32,349 nt of DNA from an uncultured Pseudomonadota bacterium (lineage in GTDB: Bacteria; Myxococcota_A; UBA796; GCA-2862545): NCBI GenBank assembly GCA_903861005.1, contig CAIOSP010000092.1, positions 1-32,349 on the forward strand, read 5' to 3'. Position 1 is the first letter of the stretch; every line of letters starts with the position of its first letter. The translations under genes and the position numbers were made by a program. Positions 6,964 to 18,485 of this stretch are shown here, one piece after another. The notes under the pieces are model-generated. The model saw only the letters and a list, made by a program, of their open reading frames with translations, did no database searches and was not told the DNA's origin.

Positions 6964-8664
6964 TCACTTCGCGGAGAACTCGACCGGCAGGCTGGTGAGG
7001 CTTCGCACAAAGCACGAGCGCAAGCGCACCGGCGGCGCGTCGGCGCTCATGTGGATGTCCGGCAGGCGGCGCAGCAGCGCCTCCAGGGCTAGGCGCGTGT
7101 CCAGGCGCGCGAGCGAGGCGCCGGGGCAGTAGTGCTTGCCGATGCCGAACGAGAGCGCGGGCTTCTCCGGATCGCGGCGCACGTCGAACACGTCGGGCTC
7201 GTGGAAGGCGCGCGGGTCGCGGTTGGCGGACGGGTAGAGCAGCACGATCTCCTCGCCGGCGCGGATGGTCTTGCCGTGGAACTCGACGTCCTGCGTCGCC
7301 GTGCGGCGCATGCGCACGAACGGACACGAGTAGCGGATCATCTCCTCGACCGCCGCGTTGAGGACCTCGTCGTTGTCGACGTTGGCCACCAGGTACGCGA
7401 GCTGTTCCGGGTGGGCCATCAGCCCCTGCATACCGATCGCGATCGCCGAGCGCGTGGTCTCGCTGCCGCCGACGAGGAGCAGGTTATGCTCCCACAGCAG
7501 CATGTCGTCGGTGAGCTTCTGCCCGTCGACCTCGGCCGCCAGCAGCGCGGACACCAGATCCTTGCCCGGGCAGGCGCGACGCTCCTCGATGATCGACTCG
7601 TGGAAGCCGTGGAAGTTGGCGAACGCGTCCACCACCTCCTCGGTCACGCCGGCGGGGCCGTTGCCGCCGCCGCAGTAGATGTCGGTCCAGTCGAGCACGT
7701 CGCCGACGATGTCCTCGGGATAGCCGAGCATGTCGGCGATCACGCGGAACGGGAGCGGGCGCGAGAACTCCTTCACCAGATCGGCCGAGCCGCGGGCGAT
7801 GAAATTGTTGATCAGGCCGTCGATGATCTCGCGGATGCGCGGCTCCAGCTCCTCGACGCGGCGCGGGGTCAGCGCCTTCGAGACGAGCGCGCGGCGGCAG
7901 GTGTGCTCGTCGCCGTCCTTGTTGATCATCGCGTCGTCCGGCCAGATGTCCAGGCCCAGCTTGGGGATGACTCCCTGGCCGCTGCAGAACAGGTCGGTGC
8001 GGCGCGACACCCACATGATGTCGTCGTAGCGCGACACGGCCCACATCTCGTTGTGGCGATCCCAGAACAGCGGCTCCTCGTCGCGCAGCCACGCGTAGAA
8101 CTCCCACGGGTCCTCGGTGTGCAGGTCGAGCGAGAGCAGGTCGGCGTTCTCGAACTCGTCGCGGCGCGTGTCGGACGGCGCGACCGTGTGGTCCTGCGGC
8201 GCCGCGGCGGCGATCGGCGTGGCGTGCGCCGGGTCCTTGGCGATGCCCGAGCCACGCATCATGCGCAGGGCGACCTCGTCGAGGCTGGCGCGCCACTCCG
8301 CGGCGTCCGCCGCGGTCCAGTCGTCGGCGAGGACCTCGGCCAGCGCGCCCACCAGCGCATCGACTGCGAGCGGGTACATGTGCGAACACACCTCGTACTC
8401 GGTGTGCCGCGCGCCCAGCTCCGCCAGGTCCTTGTTGATCCAGCCGGTGGTGTCCGTCAGATCGATCACCGCCGAGAGCATGCGCAGGAGCATCTCCTTC
8501 TGCTTCTCGCGGGATTGGTGCCCGAACAGCGGCTTGATATCGGGGTGCGCCGCGAACAGGCGCGCGTAGAACACGTCGAGCAGCGTCTTCATGCGCTCGT
8601 CGACGCGATCGAGGGTGTGCTCAAAGCGCGAGCGCGTGCTGCTGTCGGTTTCGGCCATGCTCAT
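6964..8664 (-). CDS. Globin-cytochrome P450 fusion protein
   Basis: One uninterrupted 566-residue frame. Residues about 10-138 are a flavohaemoglobin-type globin: VFYARLF with B10 Tyr33, PLF with CD1 Phe47, E7 Gln55 in EKQKEML, and the proximal F8 His87 in ELGARHTEYEV. An Ala/Pro/Asp-rich linker (about 139-170) leads into a complete P450: I-helix VGGSETT (398-404), ExxR at E441-R444, RMRRTA, and the haem loop FGIGKHYCPG with ligand Cys513. The P450 part resembles bacterial CYP125/CYP142/CYP124-like enzymes that oxidise steroid side chains and other isoprenoids. No FAD/NAD reductase domain follows the globin, unlike in flavohaemoglobins. The start at 8664 has an AAGGA site spaced 7 that overlaps the TAA of the preceding gene. 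It is last of five tightly packed genes. The substrate and the globin's role are unproven. Confidence 0.93.
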   Translation of the reverse strand: MSMAETDSSTRSRFEHTLDRVDERMKTLLDVFYARLFAAHPDIKPLFGHQSREKQKEMLLRMLSAVIDLTDTTGWINKDLAELGARHTEYEVCSHMYPLAVDALVGALAEVLADDWTAADAAEWRASLDEVALRMMRGSGIAKDPAHATPIAAAAPQDHTVAPSDTRRDEFENADLLSLDLHTEDPWEFYAWLRDEEPLFWDRHNEMWAVSRYDDIMWVSRRTDLFCSGQGVIPKLGLDIWPDDAMINKDGDEHTCRRALVSKALTPRRVEELEPRIREIIDGLINNFIARGSADLVKEFSRPLPFRVIADMLGYPEDIVGDVLDWTDIYCGGGNGPAGVTEEVVDAFANFHGFHESIIEERRACPGKDLVSALLAAEVDGQKLTDDMLLWEHNLLLVGGSETTRSAIAIGMQGLMAHPEQLAYLVANVDNDEVLNAAVEEMIRYSCPFVRMRRTATQDVEFHGKTIRAGEEIVLLYPSANRDPRAFHEPDVFDVRRDPEKPALSFGIGKHYCPGASLARLDTRLALEALLRRLPDIHMSADAPPVRLRSCFVRSLTSLPVEFSAK

Positions 8665-8665
8665 G

Positions 8666-8678
8666 GTGTGTCCTTAGG
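8666..8678 (-). promoter_or_regulatory. Shine-Dalgarno overlapping upstream stop, fixes start of globin-P450 gene
   Basis: On the minus strand CTAAGGACACACC precedes the ATG at 8664. The AAGGA core overlaps the TAA stop (8676-8674) of the extradiol dioxygenase gene, so the two genes are translationally linked. This selects the first ATG over the in-frame ATG six bases later, so the globin domain is translated from its natural N terminus. Confidence 0.7.
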
Positions 8679-9549
8679 GTGCGTCGACCGGCATGTGGCC
8701 CCACAGGGCCACGCGGTCGTAGGTGGTGGTAGACCACGTGGTGTCGTCGACCTCAAGCCCGCCCCAGCCGATCTCGATCTGGAAGCCGGCGGGGGTGCGG
8801 ACGTAGAACGACACCATGCGATCGTTGGGATGGCGCCCGAGCGTGGTCGCGTTGACCTGCGCGCGGACCGCGCGGTCGTAGGCGCGCCCCAGGTCGTCGA
8901 GCGTGGCCACCTGAAGCATCATGTGGTGCATGCGCGCGGGAATGGGACCGGCGAGCGCCACGCTGTGATGGCGCGAGTTCGTCCGCATGAAGGCGATGTC
9001 GACGTCGATGTCACCCGCGCGGCAGGTGATCCGGTCCGACAGCTTGAGGCCGAGCAGGTCGCCGTAGAAGCGCTCGCTCGCGCCGCGCACGTCAGAGCGG
9101 ATGGCCGCGTGGCCGAGCCCCTGCCCGCCCGTCACGAACCCGCCCTTGATCTTGGGCGAGACGAATGGGTCCGGGTGCAGCGTCTCGTCGACGACGAATA
9201 GCTCGCCAGGCACACCCGCCGGATCGACGAACGCGACCACGCGCCGCGCGCCGCGCGAGTGCGCCCAGTCGGCCGCGAGCTCAGTGGTCGTGACCCGAAG
9301 CGACGCGACCAGCGCGTCGAGCGTCGCGTCGTCCGCCGCCTGCCAGCCCAGGTAGGCCAGATCGTTTCGCTCGCCTTGGTGCACGCGGATGCGGTGCGAG
9401 CGCTCGTCCATGCGCAGCGCGCGCGCGGCGCCCTGGACAGGCACCGACACCATGCCCAGCACACGCTCGGCGAACGTGGCGAAGGTGTCCGGATCGGACA
9501 CCGACAGGCCCACGTAGCCAAGCTGCAGCGGTCGCACGGCGGCGGTCAT
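8674..9549 (-). CDS. Extradiol ring-cleavage dioxygenase, HsaC/BphC type
   Basis: 291 residues, the typical size of two-domain vicinal-oxygen-chelate dioxygenases such as HsaC and BphC, which cleave a catechol next to its hydroxyl pair using Fe(II). The C-terminal catalytic module shows the metal ligands H147 (GLGHAAI), H209 (RMHHMMLQV) and E259 (FQIEIGWGG), the acid-base histidines at 194-195 (NSRHHSVAL) and Tyr249. The ending WGHMP is also typical. In steroid degradation HsaC opens the catecholic ring A of the seco-steroid. The ATG overlaps the previous stop as TGATG. The neighbouring HsaA-like hydroxylase would make its catechol substrate, which supports the assignment. A biphenyl-type substrate remains possible. 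Confidence 0.9.
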   Translation of the reverse strand: MTAAVRPLQLGYVGLSVSDPDTFATFAERVLGMVSVPVQGAARALRMDERSHRIRVHQGERNDLAYLGWQAADDATLDALVASLRVTTTELAADWAHSRGARRVVAFVDPAGVPGELFVVDETLHPDPFVSPKIKGGFVTGGQGLGHAAIRSDVRGASERFYGDLLGLKLSDRITCRAGDIDVDIAFMRTNSRHHSVALAGPIPARMHHMMLQVATLDDLGRAYDRAVRAQVNATTLGRHPNDRMVSFYVRTPAGFQIEIGWGGLEVDDTTWSTTTYDRVALWGHMPVDAP

Positions 9550-10745
9550 CAGAGGAACAGGTCGGTGTTGTCGAGGCCGAGCATCACGCCGCCAAAGTTC
9601 AAGCCGGGCTTCTCCGGCTTGTTGGCGAAGTGCGCGCGGATCGCGTGCGCGTCCTGGAAGAAGCGTAGGATCTCCGACCCGTCGAAGATCGCGCGACCGC
9701 CCGCCGTGGTGAACAGCCCGTCCACCGCGTCGCAGCAGCGCTGCACCGCACGAGACGACTCGTAGCGGAACTGCGCCCGGCGCTCGAGCGGGATGGGCTG
9801 ATCGCGACGCGCGTAGTCCATCATCTCGGCGAACGCGCGGTCGAGGACCGCCTTGCACTCGTCGAGCGTGGCCGCCGCGTCGGCGCACGCGGCCTGCGCC
9901 ACGGCCTCACCCGCCACCTTGGCCCCGCTGGACGCGGCGACGCGCTGGCGCGCCACCGACGTGTACGCGTCGAGCGCGCCCTCCAGCACACCCAGGATGG
10001 TGGACGACACGGAGCGCACGAACACCTGGCCGAACGGCAGGCGGAAGAGCGGCGCGTCGAACACGGCGCGGCCCGGGTTGCGCCCGGTGAAGCCGTCGAT
10101 GAACTTGTGCGTGCGGTGCTCGGGCACAAACGCGCCGTCGACCACGATGTCCTTGCTGCCGGATCCGACCAGCCCGGTCACGTGCCAGTTGTCCTCGATG
10201 CGCCAGTCGGCGCGCGGGAGCAGGAAGGTGCGCATCTGCGGCGCGCCGTCGGGCGTGGCCGGGGGCACCATGCCGCCCAGGAAGATCCACGAGCAGTGAT
10301 CGCAGCCGCTGGAGAAGGACCAGCGACCCGACACGCGGAACCCGCCCTCGACCGGCTCGATTCGGCCGGTGGGCGCGTACGACGACGCGATGAGCGCGTC
10401 CGGATCGTTGCCCCACACGTCGTGGTGCGCGGCCTCCGGGAAGAGCGCGAGCTGCCATGCGTGGACGGCGAGCACGCTCATCACCCACGCGGTGGACGGA
10501 CAGCCCCGGCCCAGGTTGGCCTGCACGGCGTAAAGCGTGCGCGGGTCGGCCTCGTGGCCACCCCACGCGCGCGGCTTGAGCAGGTCGAAGAACCCGGCGG
10601 CGCGCAGCTCGGCGATGGTCTCGTCGGGCACGCGGCGCAGCTCACGGGTCAGCGGGATGCGCGCCTTGAGCGTGGGGATCATGTCGATCGCGGCGCGAAC
10701 GAACGCGCCATCGTCGAGCGTCGTCACGGTGGCGAGCTCAGCCAT
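9549..10745 (-). CDS. Flavin-dependent hydroxylase, HsaA-like (acyl-CoA dehydrogenase fold)
   Basis: 398 residues with the acyl-CoA-dehydrogenase fold of group D flavin monooxygenases (HsaA/HpaB-like oxygenase component). The N-terminal helical domain (RVPDETIAELRAAGFFDLL, then PRAWGG) is followed by the strand region SGRWSFSSGCDHCSW (about residues 135-149), which is characteristic of HsaA-type proteins, and a C-terminal helical bundle. Such enzymes ortho-hydroxylate a phenol using reduced flavin from a separate reductase (HsaB in actinobacteria); no such reductase is in the window. The start overlaps the end of the second Rieske gene by 8 bp. Its position immediately before the extradiol dioxygenase matches hydroxylation then ring cleavage. 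Confidence 0.87.
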   Translation of the reverse strand: MAELATVTTLDDGAFVRAAIDMIPTLKARIPLTRELRRVPDETIAELRAAGFFDLLKPRAWGGHEADPRTLYAVQANLGRGCPSTAWVMSVLAVHAWQLALFPEAAHHDVWGNDPDALIASSYAPTGRIEPVEGGFRVSGRWSFSSGCDHCSWIFLGGMVPPATPDGAPQMRTFLLPRADWRIEDNWHVTGLVGSGSKDIVVDGAFVPEHRTHKFIDGFTGRNPGRAVFDAPLFRLPFGQVFVRSVSSTILGVLEGALDAYTSVARQRVAASSGAKVAGEAVAQAACADAAATLDECKAVLDRAFAEMMDYARRDQPIPLERRAQFRYESSRAVQRCCDAVDGLFTTAGGRAIFDGSEILRFFQDAHAIRAHFANKPEKPGLNFGGVMLGLDNTDLFL

Positions 10746-11703
10746 GGAGGGCCTCCATACGCTTGGCCTCGGGCTGGTAGAAGGTGCGGTACCACTGGCG
10801 CAGCTTGATCAGCGGGCCGTCGGCGTCGCACAGCACCGGGTGATCCTTGGTGTGCATGTTCTCCCAGATGCGGATGTCCTGGAAGAAGCCCTGACGCAGG
10901 TTCTCGACGTACTTGGCGAGGAAGGCCTCATCGAGCATGACACCGTCACGCTTGCGCACCGACACGGCGAAGCGCAGCAGCAGCGTGTTCTCGTCGATCG
11001 GCGTGTGCGCGTTGATGAGGTGGCTCTCGAGGTAGCCCTTCATGTGCGTGTACTGCCAACCCGGCCCATGGTAGGTCGCGCGCAGCGAGTACTTGTCCTT
11101 GCCGCCGCCGAGCGGGTACGCCGTGCCGCTGTTGATCTGCGTCGCCATGTGGCCTGTGAACTCGTTGGAGATCGTGTCGACGTGCGTGCCGTGCACCGGG
11201 ATGAAGTGGCCGACGTCGACCACGTTCTCCACGATCTCGCGCGGGTGCGTCTTCACGATGATCTGGCCGAAGGACCACGGCGTCCAGTCGGGGGTGCCGT
11301 GGCCTTCGACCGCGGGGATATTCCAGGTCGGCGCGCCCTTCGCGCGGTCGTGCCACACGAACAGCATCCCGTCGTGCTCGTCCACGGGCCAGCAGTCGAT
11401 CTTGGCGCGCGGCGGGATCTTGGTCGCGTACGGGATGGTGGTGCACTCGCCGTCGCCGTTGAACTCCCACGCGTGGAACGGGCAGCGGACGCTCTCACCG
11501 TCGACCACGCCGCCGTAGCCCAGGTGCGCGCCCATGTGCGGGCAGTAGGCGTCGAGCACCTTGGCCTGACCGGCCGCCGTGCGGAACAGCACCAGCTCCT
11601 TGCCGAAGAAGGTGACGGGCTTCACCTCGCCGACCGCGAGCTCCTCGCTGAAGCAGACGAGGAACCAGCCGCTCGCGAAGCCTTGGAAGGACGTGTCGCT
11701 CAT
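10738..11703 (-). CDS. Rieske oxygenase, KshA-like (second copy)
   Basis: 321 residues from the ATG at 11703, which overlaps the previous stop as ATGA. The N-terminal Rieske domain has the [2Fe-2S] ligands C54/H56 (CPHMGAH) and C74/H77 (CPFHAW). The catalytic domain has N160, D163, H166 and H171 in ENVVDVGHFIPVHGT, the bridging Asp and the mononuclear-iron histidines. Near the C terminus the block QDIRIWENM followed by PVLCDADGP and QWYRTFY closely matches the 3-ketosteroid 9-alpha-hydroxylase oxygenase KshA. KshA takes electrons from a ferredoxin reductase (KshB), which is absent here. It is clearly paralogous to the gene just upstream. Confidence 0.88.
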   Translation of the reverse strand: MSDTSFQGFASGWFLVCFSEELAVGEVKPVTFFGKELVLFRTAAGQAKVLDAYCPHMGAHLGYGGVVDGESVRCPFHAWEFNGDGECTTIPYATKIPPRAKIDCWPVDEHDGMLFVWHDRAKGAPTWNIPAVEGHGTPDWTPWSFGQIIVKTHPREIVENVVDVGHFIPVHGTHVDTISNEFTGHMATQINSGTAYPLGGGKDKYSLRATYHGPGWQYTHMKGYLESHLINAHTPIDENTLLLRFAVSVRKRDGVMLDEAFLAKYVENLRQGFFQDIRIWENMHTKDHPVLCDADGPLIKLRQWYRTFYQPEAKRMEALHG

Positions 11704-12737
11704 GCGCCCTCCCCCGGGCCCGCCATCGGGCGACCGTAGAAGGCCTGGTAGGTCTCGCGCACGGAGGAGTCCGGGTAGAACTGCTTGCACCACACGCGGA
11801 AGCGACCGATGGGGCCGTCACCGTCGCACAGCAGCGGCGGGTCGATGTAGATCTTGTTCTCCCACACCGGCGTGTCCTGCTCAAGCTGACGCGCGATCTC
11901 GGCGACGAACGCGCGGCCGATGCCCTCGGTGATGTCGCGGCCGCCGAACTTCTTCACGACGAAGCTGAAGCGCACGTCGACGAACTCGTCGTCCACCGGG
12001 CAGACGGCGCCGATCAGCAGCGTCTCCACCAGGCCGGTGAAGCGGTTCACCGAGAAGCCAAAGCCATGCGCGGACACGTCGAGGTTGCCCTCGACCTCAC
12101 CGTGCGCGGTCTCCATGACGGTGATCGCCTTCACCTTGAAGAGCGGGCCCTCCACGGTGATCTCGGCGGGAGGCATGTTCTTGGTGCCGTGGAGGTACTT
12201 GAAGTGGGCCACGTCCACCATGTTCTCCGCCATCTCCTGGTTGTGCGTGCGGATGCGCCACACGCGGTGCCAGGCGGTCGACCACTTGTCGCTGGAGAAC
12301 TCGGGCAGGTCGGGGATCTCCCAGGTGGGCGCGCGCTTCTCGGCGTCGTGCCACACCATGATGCCGCCGTTCACTTCGTTCACCGGCCAGCAGTCGACCT
12401 TGGCGCGCGGCGGCACCTTCTGGGCGTACGGGATGGTCGTGCAGACGCCGTCCCCGTTGAATTGCCAGGCGTGGAACGGACAGACGAGCTCGTCGTCCTT
12501 GAGCACGCCGCCGTGGCCCAGGTGGGCGCCCATGTGCGGGCAGTAGGCGTCGAGGACCTTGATCACGCCGTCCGAGCGACGGAAGAGCACCAGCTCCTTG
12601 CCGAAGCGCGTCATCGGCACGACCTGGCCGACCGCCACCTCCTCAGACCACCCGATCTGGAACCAGCCCGTCGGGTACCGAGGAAAGGGAAAGCGGGGGC
12701 GGCCCGAAGAGGCCCGCTCGGAAACAGTCTTGTTCAT
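11700..12737 (-). CDS. Rieske oxygenase, KshA-like (first gene of operon)
   Basis: 345 residues from the ATG at 12737; an ATG at 12740 is also possible, but the GGAG site is better spaced (7) for 12737. Rieske ligands are C66/H68 (CPHMGAH) and C86/H89 (CPFHAW). The iron site is ENMVDVAHFKYLHGT (N172, D175, H178, H183), and the C-terminal block QDTPVWENKIYIDPPLLCDG with DGPIGRFRVW is strongly KshA-like. KshA hydroxylates C9 of 3-ketosteroids, which triggers opening of ring B. It heads the operon and lies 50 bp downstream of the KstR-like palindrome. Two KshA-type proteins in a row suggest two substrates or two positions of attack. Confidence 0.9.
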   Translation of the reverse strand: MNKTVSERASSGRPRFPFPRYPTGWFQIGWSEEVAVGQVVPMTRFGKELVLFRRSDGVIKVLDAYCPHMGAHLGHGGVLKDDELVCPFHAWQFNGDGVCTTIPYAQKVPPRAKVDCWPVNEVNGGIMVWHDAEKRAPTWEIPDLPEFSSDKWSTAWHRVWRIRTHNQEMAENMVDVAHFKYLHGTKNMPPAEITVEGPLFKVKAITVMETAHGEVEGNLDVSAHGFGFSVNRFTGLVETLLIGAVCPVDDEFVDVRFSFVVKKFGGRDITEGIGRAFVAEIARQLEQDTPVWENKIYIDPPLLCDGDGPIGRFRVWCKQFYPDSSVRETYQAFYGRPMAGPGEGA

Positions 12738-12787
12738 CATGACTCCGTCGTCGTCCCCGCCCATGGGGAACGCCCTCGACGTGACAG

Positions 12788-12803
12788 GTAGAACATGTTC
12801 TAC
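12788..12803. promoter_or_regulatory. Perfect 16-bp palindrome, KstR-like TetR operator
   Basis: GTAGAACATGTTCTAC is its own reverse complement. The inner 14 bases (12789-12802) fit the KstR operator consensus TnnAACnnGTTnnA at every fixed position. It lies in the 125-bp divergent region, 50 bp before the Rieske gene start and 59 bp before the LuxR-type gene start, so one regulator could control both. KstR is the TetR-family repressor of cholesterol catabolism in actinobacteria; related TetR proteins use similar half-sites. No TetR gene is in the window. Confidence 0.75.
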
Positions 12804-12815
12804 TTGTGCAAGAAT

Positions 12816-12829
12816 CGGTCGTTTGACCG
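12816..12829. promoter_or_regulatory. Small inverted repeat in divergent promoter
   Basis: CGGTC-GTTT-GACCG forms a 5-bp stem with a 4-base loop. It lies between the KstR-like site and the start of the LuxR-type gene, so it may be a second binding site or an RNA hairpin in the leader. It is too short to call firmly. Confidence 0.35.
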
Positions 12830-12832
12830 ACC

Positions 12833-12849
12833 CCCCCACGTTGTGGGGG
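12833..12849 (+). promoter_or_regulatory. GC-rich leader hairpin next to the LuxR-type gene's ribosome site
   Basis: CCCCCAC-GTT-GTGGGGG is a perfect 7-bp stem with a 3-base loop, ending 3 bases before the GAGG ribosome-binding site (12853-12856) of the regulator gene. In RNA it would be very stable and could limit ribosome access or protect the 5' end. There is no T-run, so it is not an obvious intrinsic terminator. Confidence 0.5.
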
Positions 12850-12862
12850 AACGAGGCGGATC

Positions 12863-13372
12863 GTGGCGAAGGGTCCAGCGCCGGTGATCGTGGTGGATGC
12901 CCGCGGGATGGTCTCCCGCGTGAGCACGTCCGCTCACGAGGCCCTGGGACCCAGCTCGGGCCGCCGCTGCTCCGAGGTCGTCCGCATGCGCGGCGTGCGG
13001 GGCGAGGCCGGCTGCTACCCCGGCTGCGCGGCGGATCTGACGAAGAACGGCGGCGCCCAGAGCAGCGTCGGCACGGTGCGCGGCGCCCTGCATCGCGTGT
13101 CGTGCTCGAGCGTGGGCGACGGCGTGGTGGTGGTGCTGGAGGAGGTCGATGCCGAGCTGCCCGAGGCCAGCCTGCCCTCCGCGCGCGAGCTGGAGGTCCT
13201 CGCCCTGGTGGCGACGGGCATGACCAACGTGCAGGTCGCGGCCCAGCTCGGCGTGTCCTTCGCCACCGTGCGCACGCACATGGAGCACGTACGGGCCCGC
13301 CTGGGCGCGCGCACGCGGGCGGAGGCGGTGGCCAAGGCCGTGGCGCTCGGGCTGTTCAGCCAGCCCAAGTAG
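12863..13372 (+). CDS. LuxR-type transcription regulator with Cys-rich PAS-like sensor domain
   Basis: 169 residues from a GTG with GAGG spaced 6. Residues about 5-95 look like a reduced PAS domain (PVIVVDARGMVSRV at the start, VGDGVVVVLEEV at the end) carrying a Cys pattern: C36 in GRRCSEVV, then C51 and C55 in GCYPGCAADL, plus C81. Residues about 103-165 are a LuxR/GerE helix-turn-helix (SARELEVLALVATGMTNVQV, then FATVRTHMEHVRARLGARTR). The Cys set suggests redox, metal or NO sensing, but no cofactor can be assigned from sequence. It is divergent from the oxygenase operon and shares its promoter region, so it probably regulates it. The gene ends 18 bp from the converging histidine kinase. 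Confidence 0.85.
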   Translation: MAKGPAPVIVVDARGMVSRVSTSAHEALGPSSGRRCSEVVRMRGVRGEAGCYPGCAADLTKNGGAQSSVGTVRGALHRVSCSSVGDGVVVVLEEVDAELPEASLPSARELEVLALVATGMTNVQVAAQLGVSFATVRTHMEHVRARLGARTRAEAVAKAVALGLFSQPK

Positions 13373-17249: not shown

Positions 17250-18485
17250 CTAGTCGACCGGCAGGCGGTCGGGGAACGCGATGGCCAGCTGCTGTCGTAC
17301 GCGACCCCAGTGCGGGATGGGCATCTCCCACTTCTTCGCGGCGCGGTCGATCGCGAGCCACAGAAGCTTCATCACCGAGCCGTCCGTCGGGAACGCGCCG
17401 CGCGTCTTTGTGATTTTGCGAAGCTGACGGTTCAACGCCTCGATGGGGTTCGTCGTGTCGATGGCGCGGCGCAGCTCCGGCGGGAACGCCAGGAACGGCG
17501 ACACCCGCGCCCAATTCGACCGCCACGACGCGCCGATGCTGGGGTACGCCTTCGCCCACTTGGTCTCGAAGGCGGTCAGCGCATCCAGCGCGGCCTGCTC
17601 GTTGAGGGCGGCGTACACCGTGCGCAGGTCGCGCGTCAGCGCCTTCTGGTCCTTCCAGTTCACGAAGCGCGTGCTGCTGCGCACCATGTGGACCACGCAC
17701 GTATGCACGACCGTGCGCCCGAACACGGCCTCAATGGCCTCTGGCAGGCCCTTCAGGCCGTCGCAGCAGGCGACCAGGATGTCCTGGACCTCGCGCTGCC
17801 GCAGGTCGCTGGCAACCTGCATCCAGAACTTCGCGCCCGCGGTCTGGGCCATCCACATGCCGAGCACGTCCTTGTGCCCGTCTGAGTCGACGCCCAGGAC
17901 GATGTACACCGTCTTGTTGCGCACCATGCCTTCGTCACGCACCCGCACGACGAACCCGTCGAAGTAGACGATGGCGTACACGGCATCCAGGGGCCGAGTC
18001 TGCCACGCCCGCACGTCGTCCATCACCTGGTCCGTGACGCGCGAGATGAGGTCGGGACTGACGTCCACGTCGTACATCTCCTTCACGTGCTCCTGGATCT
18101 CGCGGACGGACAGGCCGCGCGCGTAGAGCGCGATGACCTGGTCATCGAAGCCGGCGATGCGACGCTGGCCCTTCTTCACCAGCTGCGCCTCAAACTCGCC
18201 GTCGCGGTCGCGCGCCACGTCGAGCTCGAGCGTCTCGTCCGCGACGATGACCCGCTTCGTGTTGTGCCCGTTCCGCGAGTTGTCCCCGTTGAAACCCTCC
18301 GGCGCGTGCTTGTCGTACCCAAGGTGCGCCGACATCTCGGCCTCGAGCATGCTCTCCAGGGCGGCCTTCTTCAGCTTGGTGAAGAGGCCGTCCTTACCAA
18401 ACAGCTCGTCGGTGGTCTTGAGGTCCTTGACCAGCTCGCCAATCAGCTCGCGGGCCCGGTCGGTCTTGTCTCTCGTCTTGGGCAT
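17250..18485 (-). CDS. IS256-family (mutator type) transposase
   Basis: 411 residues, full length for the family. DDE catalytic residues are visible: D176 (VYFDGFVV), D242 (ACCDGLKGLPEA) and E349 (TTNPIEALNRQLR). Conserved flanking blocks are also intact: RSSTRFVNWKDQK and KITKTRGAFPTD. The N-terminal region (DGLFTKLKKAALESMLEAEM and NGDNSRNGHNTK) is the usual DNA-binding part. No stop or frameshift interrupts it, so the element may be active. A strong AGGAGG lies upstream of the ATG at 18485 but within a hairpin. Confidence 0.95.
   Translation of the reverse strand: MPKTRDKTDRARELIGELVKDLKTTDELFGKDGLFTKLKKAALESMLEAEMSAHLGYDKHAPEGFNGDNSRNGHNTKRVIVADETLELDVARDRDGEFEAQLVKKGQRRIAGFDDQVIALYARGLSVREIQEHVKEMYDVDVSPDLISRVTDQVMDDVRAWQTRPLDAVYAIVYFDGFVVRVRDEGMVRNKTVYIVLGVDSDGHKDVLGMWMAQTAGAKFWMQVASDLRQREVQDILVACCDGLKGLPEAIEAVFGRTVVHTCVVHMVRSSTRFVNWKDQKALTRDLRTVYAALNEQAALDALTAFETKWAKAYPSIGASWRSNWARVSPFLAFPPELRRAIDTTNPIEALNRQLRKITKTRGAFPTDGSVMKLLWLAIDRAAKKWEMPIPHWGRVRQQLAIAFPDRLPVD

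Follow-up and report, generated by a model that had tools for sequence, protein, structure and literature searches.

A perfect 16-bp palindrome precedes an operon for steroid ring cleavage in a genome that appears to belong to Myxococcota. Very probably it is recognised by a homologue of KstR, the TetR protein that represses cholesterol breakdown in Mycobacterium. We consider it highly likely that the palindrome is an operator at which the only KstR-type TetR of this genome, bound as a dimer, would repress the operon. We favour this reading because of the regulon-wide pattern of the motif, the presence of one KstR homologue only, the likely self-regulation site of that homologue, and the conservation of the site in relatives. 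The palindrome lies in the window, meaning the whole stretch of DNA analysed (32,349 nucleotides); this corresponds to contig C92 in a draft assembly of 5.81 Mb and 223 contigs. The site and its surroundings are as follows.

12788 to 12803, no strand assigned: predicted KstR-type operator, the perfect 16-bp palindrome GTAGAACATGTTCTAC (from the sequence, the genome-wide set and conservation at kshA orthologues)
12741 to 12862, no strand assigned: divergent promoter region containing the operator (from the flanking gene starts read from the sequence)

The sequence GTAGAACATGTTCTAC is its own reverse complement, and its core at 12789-12802, TAGAACATGTTCTA, agrees with all eight fixed positions of the KstR consensus TNNAACNNGTTNNA; both properties had been claimed in the original prediction and were confirmed. 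It is the only TNNAACNNGTTNNA match in the window, where shuffled sequences gave an expectation of 0.02. The core is an exact instance of TAGAAC(N2)GTTCTA, the palindrome described by Kendall and co-workers in the mycobacterial kstR promoter (PMC1995591), and the site has the form of a KstR operator, a 14-bp palindrome with the core TnnAACnnGTTnnA. Its placement in a promoter shared by the operon and a divergent regulator, also part of the prediction, held as well. The operator ends 47 nt upstream of the likeliest KshA start (ATG at 12740, minus strand, preceded by GGAG), and the operator stands 59 nt upstream of the GTG at 12863 (plus strand) of a LuxR-type gene. This divergent regulator is of the LuxR type and not the repressor expected at the operator; its gene is a possible second target. 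A promoter consensus scan of the divergent region found no sigma-70 consensus. Adjoining the operator, at 12817-12830, is a short inverted repeat, CGGTC-GTTT-GACCG, perhaps the site of another regulator.

To the left of the operator, five minus-strand genes form a tightly packed operon in which adjacent genes overlap or are about 9 bp apart. These genes and the divergent regulator gene are listed below.

11700 to 12740, minus: KshA-type Rieske oxygenase, first gene of the operon (PF19298 KshA_C, 3e-42; PF00355; best solved structures KshA, 1.9e-53)
10738 to 11703, minus: second KshA-type Rieske oxygenase (PF19298 KshA_C, 4e-55)
9549 to 10745, minus: HsaA-type flavin monooxygenase, oxygenase part (closest match among solved structures: 3-HSA hydroxylase, 9e-90)
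8674 to 9549, minus: HsaC/BphC-type extradiol dioxygenase (PF00903, PF22632; solved structures BphC, 3.5e-59, and 2zi8/2zyq, 7e-40)
6964 to 8664, minus: fusion of a globin domain and a CYP125/CYP142-type P450, at the distal end of the operon (PF00042, PF00067)
12863 to 13372, plus: divergent LuxR-type (GerE) regulator gene (PF00196, 2.7e-15)

The HsaA-type protein matched NCBIfam HsaA at 1.2e-122 with 409 bits, below the cut-off of 450, and the NCBIfam scores of the HsaC/BphC-type dioxygenase were likewise under the cut-offs. For the P450 part of the fusion protein, the CYP125 and CYP142 steroid C26-monooxygenases were among the best solved-structure matches. The fusion is one 566-aa frame with the globin domain at residues 32-132. 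It looks private to this genome, judging from protein alignments, because almost all of the matches listed among the 141 genomes of our comparative set align only from about residue 140-200 onward. A literature search found no paper on such a protein. A Mutator-type transposase gene (17250-18485, minus strand, PF00872) is located a few kb from the operon.

The distribution of the motif over the genome was then examined. The exact 14-mer TAGAACRYGTTCTA is present in 11 copies (seven on contig C86, two on C85, and one each on C62 and C92), compared with 0.006 expected from composition and none for the reversed control. None of them falls in coding sequence, and each stands ahead of a gene for steroid or sterol catabolism or for a cytochrome P450; the C62 and C68 copies that have one mismatch are also outside coding sequence. 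Such a scan had been proposed along with the original prediction, and the clustering of the 11 matches at steroid-degradation genes favours the KstR-type operator reading. That the palindrome is a functionless chance occurrence is hardly credible in view of these numbers, the expectation of 0.02 for the window, and the conservation of the site in relatives. The sites outside the window are given below; target gene names going past the family matches were assigned from gene order and similarity.

C86:4440: site upstream of HsaD-HsaE-HsaG-HsaF type genes
C86:14729/14767: sites between an amidohydrolase-HsaA-HsaC operon and KstD-KshA
C86:36399/36414: sites at SCP2, ChsH2-type, thiolase, acyl-CoA dehydrogenase and P450 genes
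C86:57339: site between a CoA transferase and a FadA5-like thiolase
C86:64364: site at a GMC oxidoreductase
C85:41421/41455: sites at a P450
C62:13014/13040: sites between FadD3-type and EchA20-IpdA-IpdB-IpdC type genes
C68:143112: one-mismatch operator, 23 bp before the gene for a protein of 216 aa that has no Pfam match

The 216-aa protein behind the C68 site is a candidate for a steroid gene of a new sort. For two C86 genes the called start falls within an operator (57345 and 64370); the call is probably wrong in both cases, an in-frame ATG being available a short way downstream. In four promoters (C86:14729/14767, C86:36399/36414, C85:41421/41455 and C62:13014/13040), operators occur in pairs spaced by 15 to 38 bp, a hint that each of these promoters may take two repressor dimers; the window palindrome stands alone. 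The looser TNNAACNNGTTNNA gave 42 matches in the genome against 17 for its control, and nearly all the other loose matches examined were within coding frames. We therefore rejected TNNAACNNGTTNNA alone as a site predictor, most of its matches in this GC-rich genome being coding and due to chance. A match on C89, TAGAACGCGTTCGA, was also rejected as an operator because it sits within a coding frame.

The SOS box of Gram-positive LexA, GAAC-N4-GTTC, has the half-sites GAAC and GTTC in common with the window palindrome. The spacer in the window is two bases, however, and not the four of an SOS box, and the sites precede genes for steroid catabolism, not for DNA repair. We give next to no weight to the idea that the palindrome is a LexA box of this type.

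We searched the genome for a protein that could read a KstR-type operator, as the original prediction had suggested. TetR_N has 23 matches, and exactly one of them is a clear KstR homologue.

C86:32963-33553, minus: KstR-like TetR gene in the main steroid cluster, adjoining a KshA gene; the cluster contains seven exact sites

The best match of this protein among all solved structures in the PDB was M. tuberculosis KstR (1.8e-19). In the reverse test with the KstR sequence, it scored 72.7 bits and the next TetR in the genome 35.3 bits. The protein has the Pfam domain TetR_C_20, is about 30% identical to KstR overall, and has NCBIfam KstR (NF033703) as its best family (E 4e-32). Since its score of 111 bits is under the NF033703 equivalog cut-off of 280 bits, we call it KstR-type and not a KstR equivalog. 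With its AlphaFold2 model (pLDDT 93), the top 17 Foldseek matches were all KstR chains, including the DNA-bound and cholesteryl-CoA-bound forms. In a phylogenetic tree, the Myxococcota KstR proteins grouped as sister to those of Actinobacteria, and the remaining TetRs of the genome branched outside both; support for the Myxococcota group was moderate (92/53). A recent acquisition of the gene from Actinobacteria seems unlikely; an old one may have taken place. At C86:33566-33579, 12 bp upstream of its called start, is the near-operator TAGAACATGTTTCA, whose core is intact and whose outer bases are imperfect. This is likely the self-regulation site of the repressor, and with it a site is present in the repressor's own promoter, as in KstR regulons.

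We compared 141 genomes, own included, for the motif and the homologue. The exact motif was found in 23 and a KstR homologue in 29, with both in 20. Thus 20/23 motif-bearing genomes have the homologue versus 9/118 motif-free genomes (Fisher 1.5e-14). Among the nine relatives with a homologue and no exact motif, some have TGAAAC variants instead. Sites occur upstream of orthologues of the window kshA (in G112, G037, G080, G135 and others), and upstream of kstD, hsaA-hsaC and hsaG-hsaF orthologues in relatives. In the promoters of kstR-type genes, TnnAACnnGTTnnA was present at 46/61 actinobacterial loci and at 9/19 loci grouped as Myxococcota, several of whose records are titled otherwise; four control patterns of like composition scored 0. 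In the kstR promoters of more distant relatives (L124, L128, L130, L132, L133, L136 and L137), the operator drifts to TGAAACGTGTTTCA and similar sequences, with the AAC-N2-GTT core kept.

In two assemblies we detected exact sites but no KstR homologue: G011 (97% complete), with 15 sites, and G001, with three; this counts against the main reading. An assembly gap may explain both cases, because the kshA gene that adjoins kstR elsewhere was not seen in them either. Alternatively, their sites may be read by another regulator. Extended to the window, this would make the site the operator of one of the other 22 TetRs or of the divergent LuxR-type protein, whose gene adjoins it, with the KstR homologue uninvolved. 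We regard that as improbable. The remaining TetRs reach at most some 35 bits against KstR, versus 72.7, and it is the KstR homologue that lies within the seven-site cluster, has a near-operator in its own promoter, and co-occurs with the motif across relatives. As for the LuxR-type protein, no relative of it was seen beside the G112 kshA orthologue.

The reading of the palindrome as a KstR-type operator extends to the lower pathway. Mycobacteria control their HIP (C/D-ring) genes separately, as a regulon of KstR2 marked by AnCAAGnnCTTGnT (PMC3068626, PMC5380842). Here, the HIP operon on C62 carries a KstR-type palindrome. An echA20 homologue was found in 27 genomes, own included. A KstR-type site was present just upstream of echA20 in all 13 of the closest (64% identity or more), own included, and in none of the 14 others. 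The KstR2 motif AnCAAGnnCTTGnT occurred in 0/27 echA20 promoters, and three control patterns also scored 0 in this test. Genome-wide, AnCAAGnnCTTGnT had one match versus 6 for its control, and none in the C62 stretch read. Because the HIP genes bear a KstR-type site without the KstR2 motif, one KstR-type repressor probably governs the whole pathway in this clade, replacing the KstR and KstR2 pair of Actinobacteria. We think it likely that a single KstR-type repressor controls a near-complete sterol degradation pathway in this Myxococcota clade, the HIP genes having a KstR and not a KstR2 operator; either the two-repressor system of Actinobacteria would derive from such an arrangement, or these Myxococcota would have lost KstR2 or never possessed it.

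At the window promoter, a dimer of the KstR-type protein (C86:32963-33553, minus strand) would bind the palindrome. As long as steroid is absent, the repressor would sit some 50 bp ahead of the kshA-like start codon and block the five-gene operon, and perhaps the divergent LuxR-type gene too. Upon sterol uptake, the CoA thioester of an early steroid intermediate would release the repressor, and the window operon would be turned on together with the dispersed steroid regulon. Binding to DNA, repression and the CoA-thioester ligand are what we infer; steroid-responsive control of the site would follow from homology to KstR.

The regulon resembles that of Mycobacterium KstR (Rv3574/MSMEG_6042; PMC1995591) in its identical 14-bp palindrome, in its like targets (kstD, kshA, hsa, sterol side chain), and in a TetR repressor whose own promoter carries a site. 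It differs in that the host appears to belong to another phylum, Myxococcota, and that the repressor, which falls in a sister clade, has about 30% identity and scores under the NCBIfam equivalog cut-off. In addition, the regulon here includes the HIP genes, and the window operon has a second KshA/HsaA/HsaC set with a globin-P450. With the KstR2 regulon of Actinobacteria (PMC3068626, PMC5380842), it shares the same HIP genes (EchA20-IpdA-IpdB-IpdC order, and FadD3, FadA6 and FadE types), likewise divergently arranged, here on C62, but these have a KstR-type operator and lack AnCAAGnnCTTGnT. A search of open-access papers turned up no report of a KstR regulon, or of sterol degradation, for Myxococcota. 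Our results support a KstR-type regulon outside the groups previously surveyed for steroid degradation, with altered wiring of the lower pathway. If true, this would extend the sterol pathway and KstR-type control to another phylum and provide a clean motif for predicting steroid genes in Myxococcota. Comparison could then also test how the wiring with two repressors, KstR and KstR2, arose, a system studied on account of M. tuberculosis.
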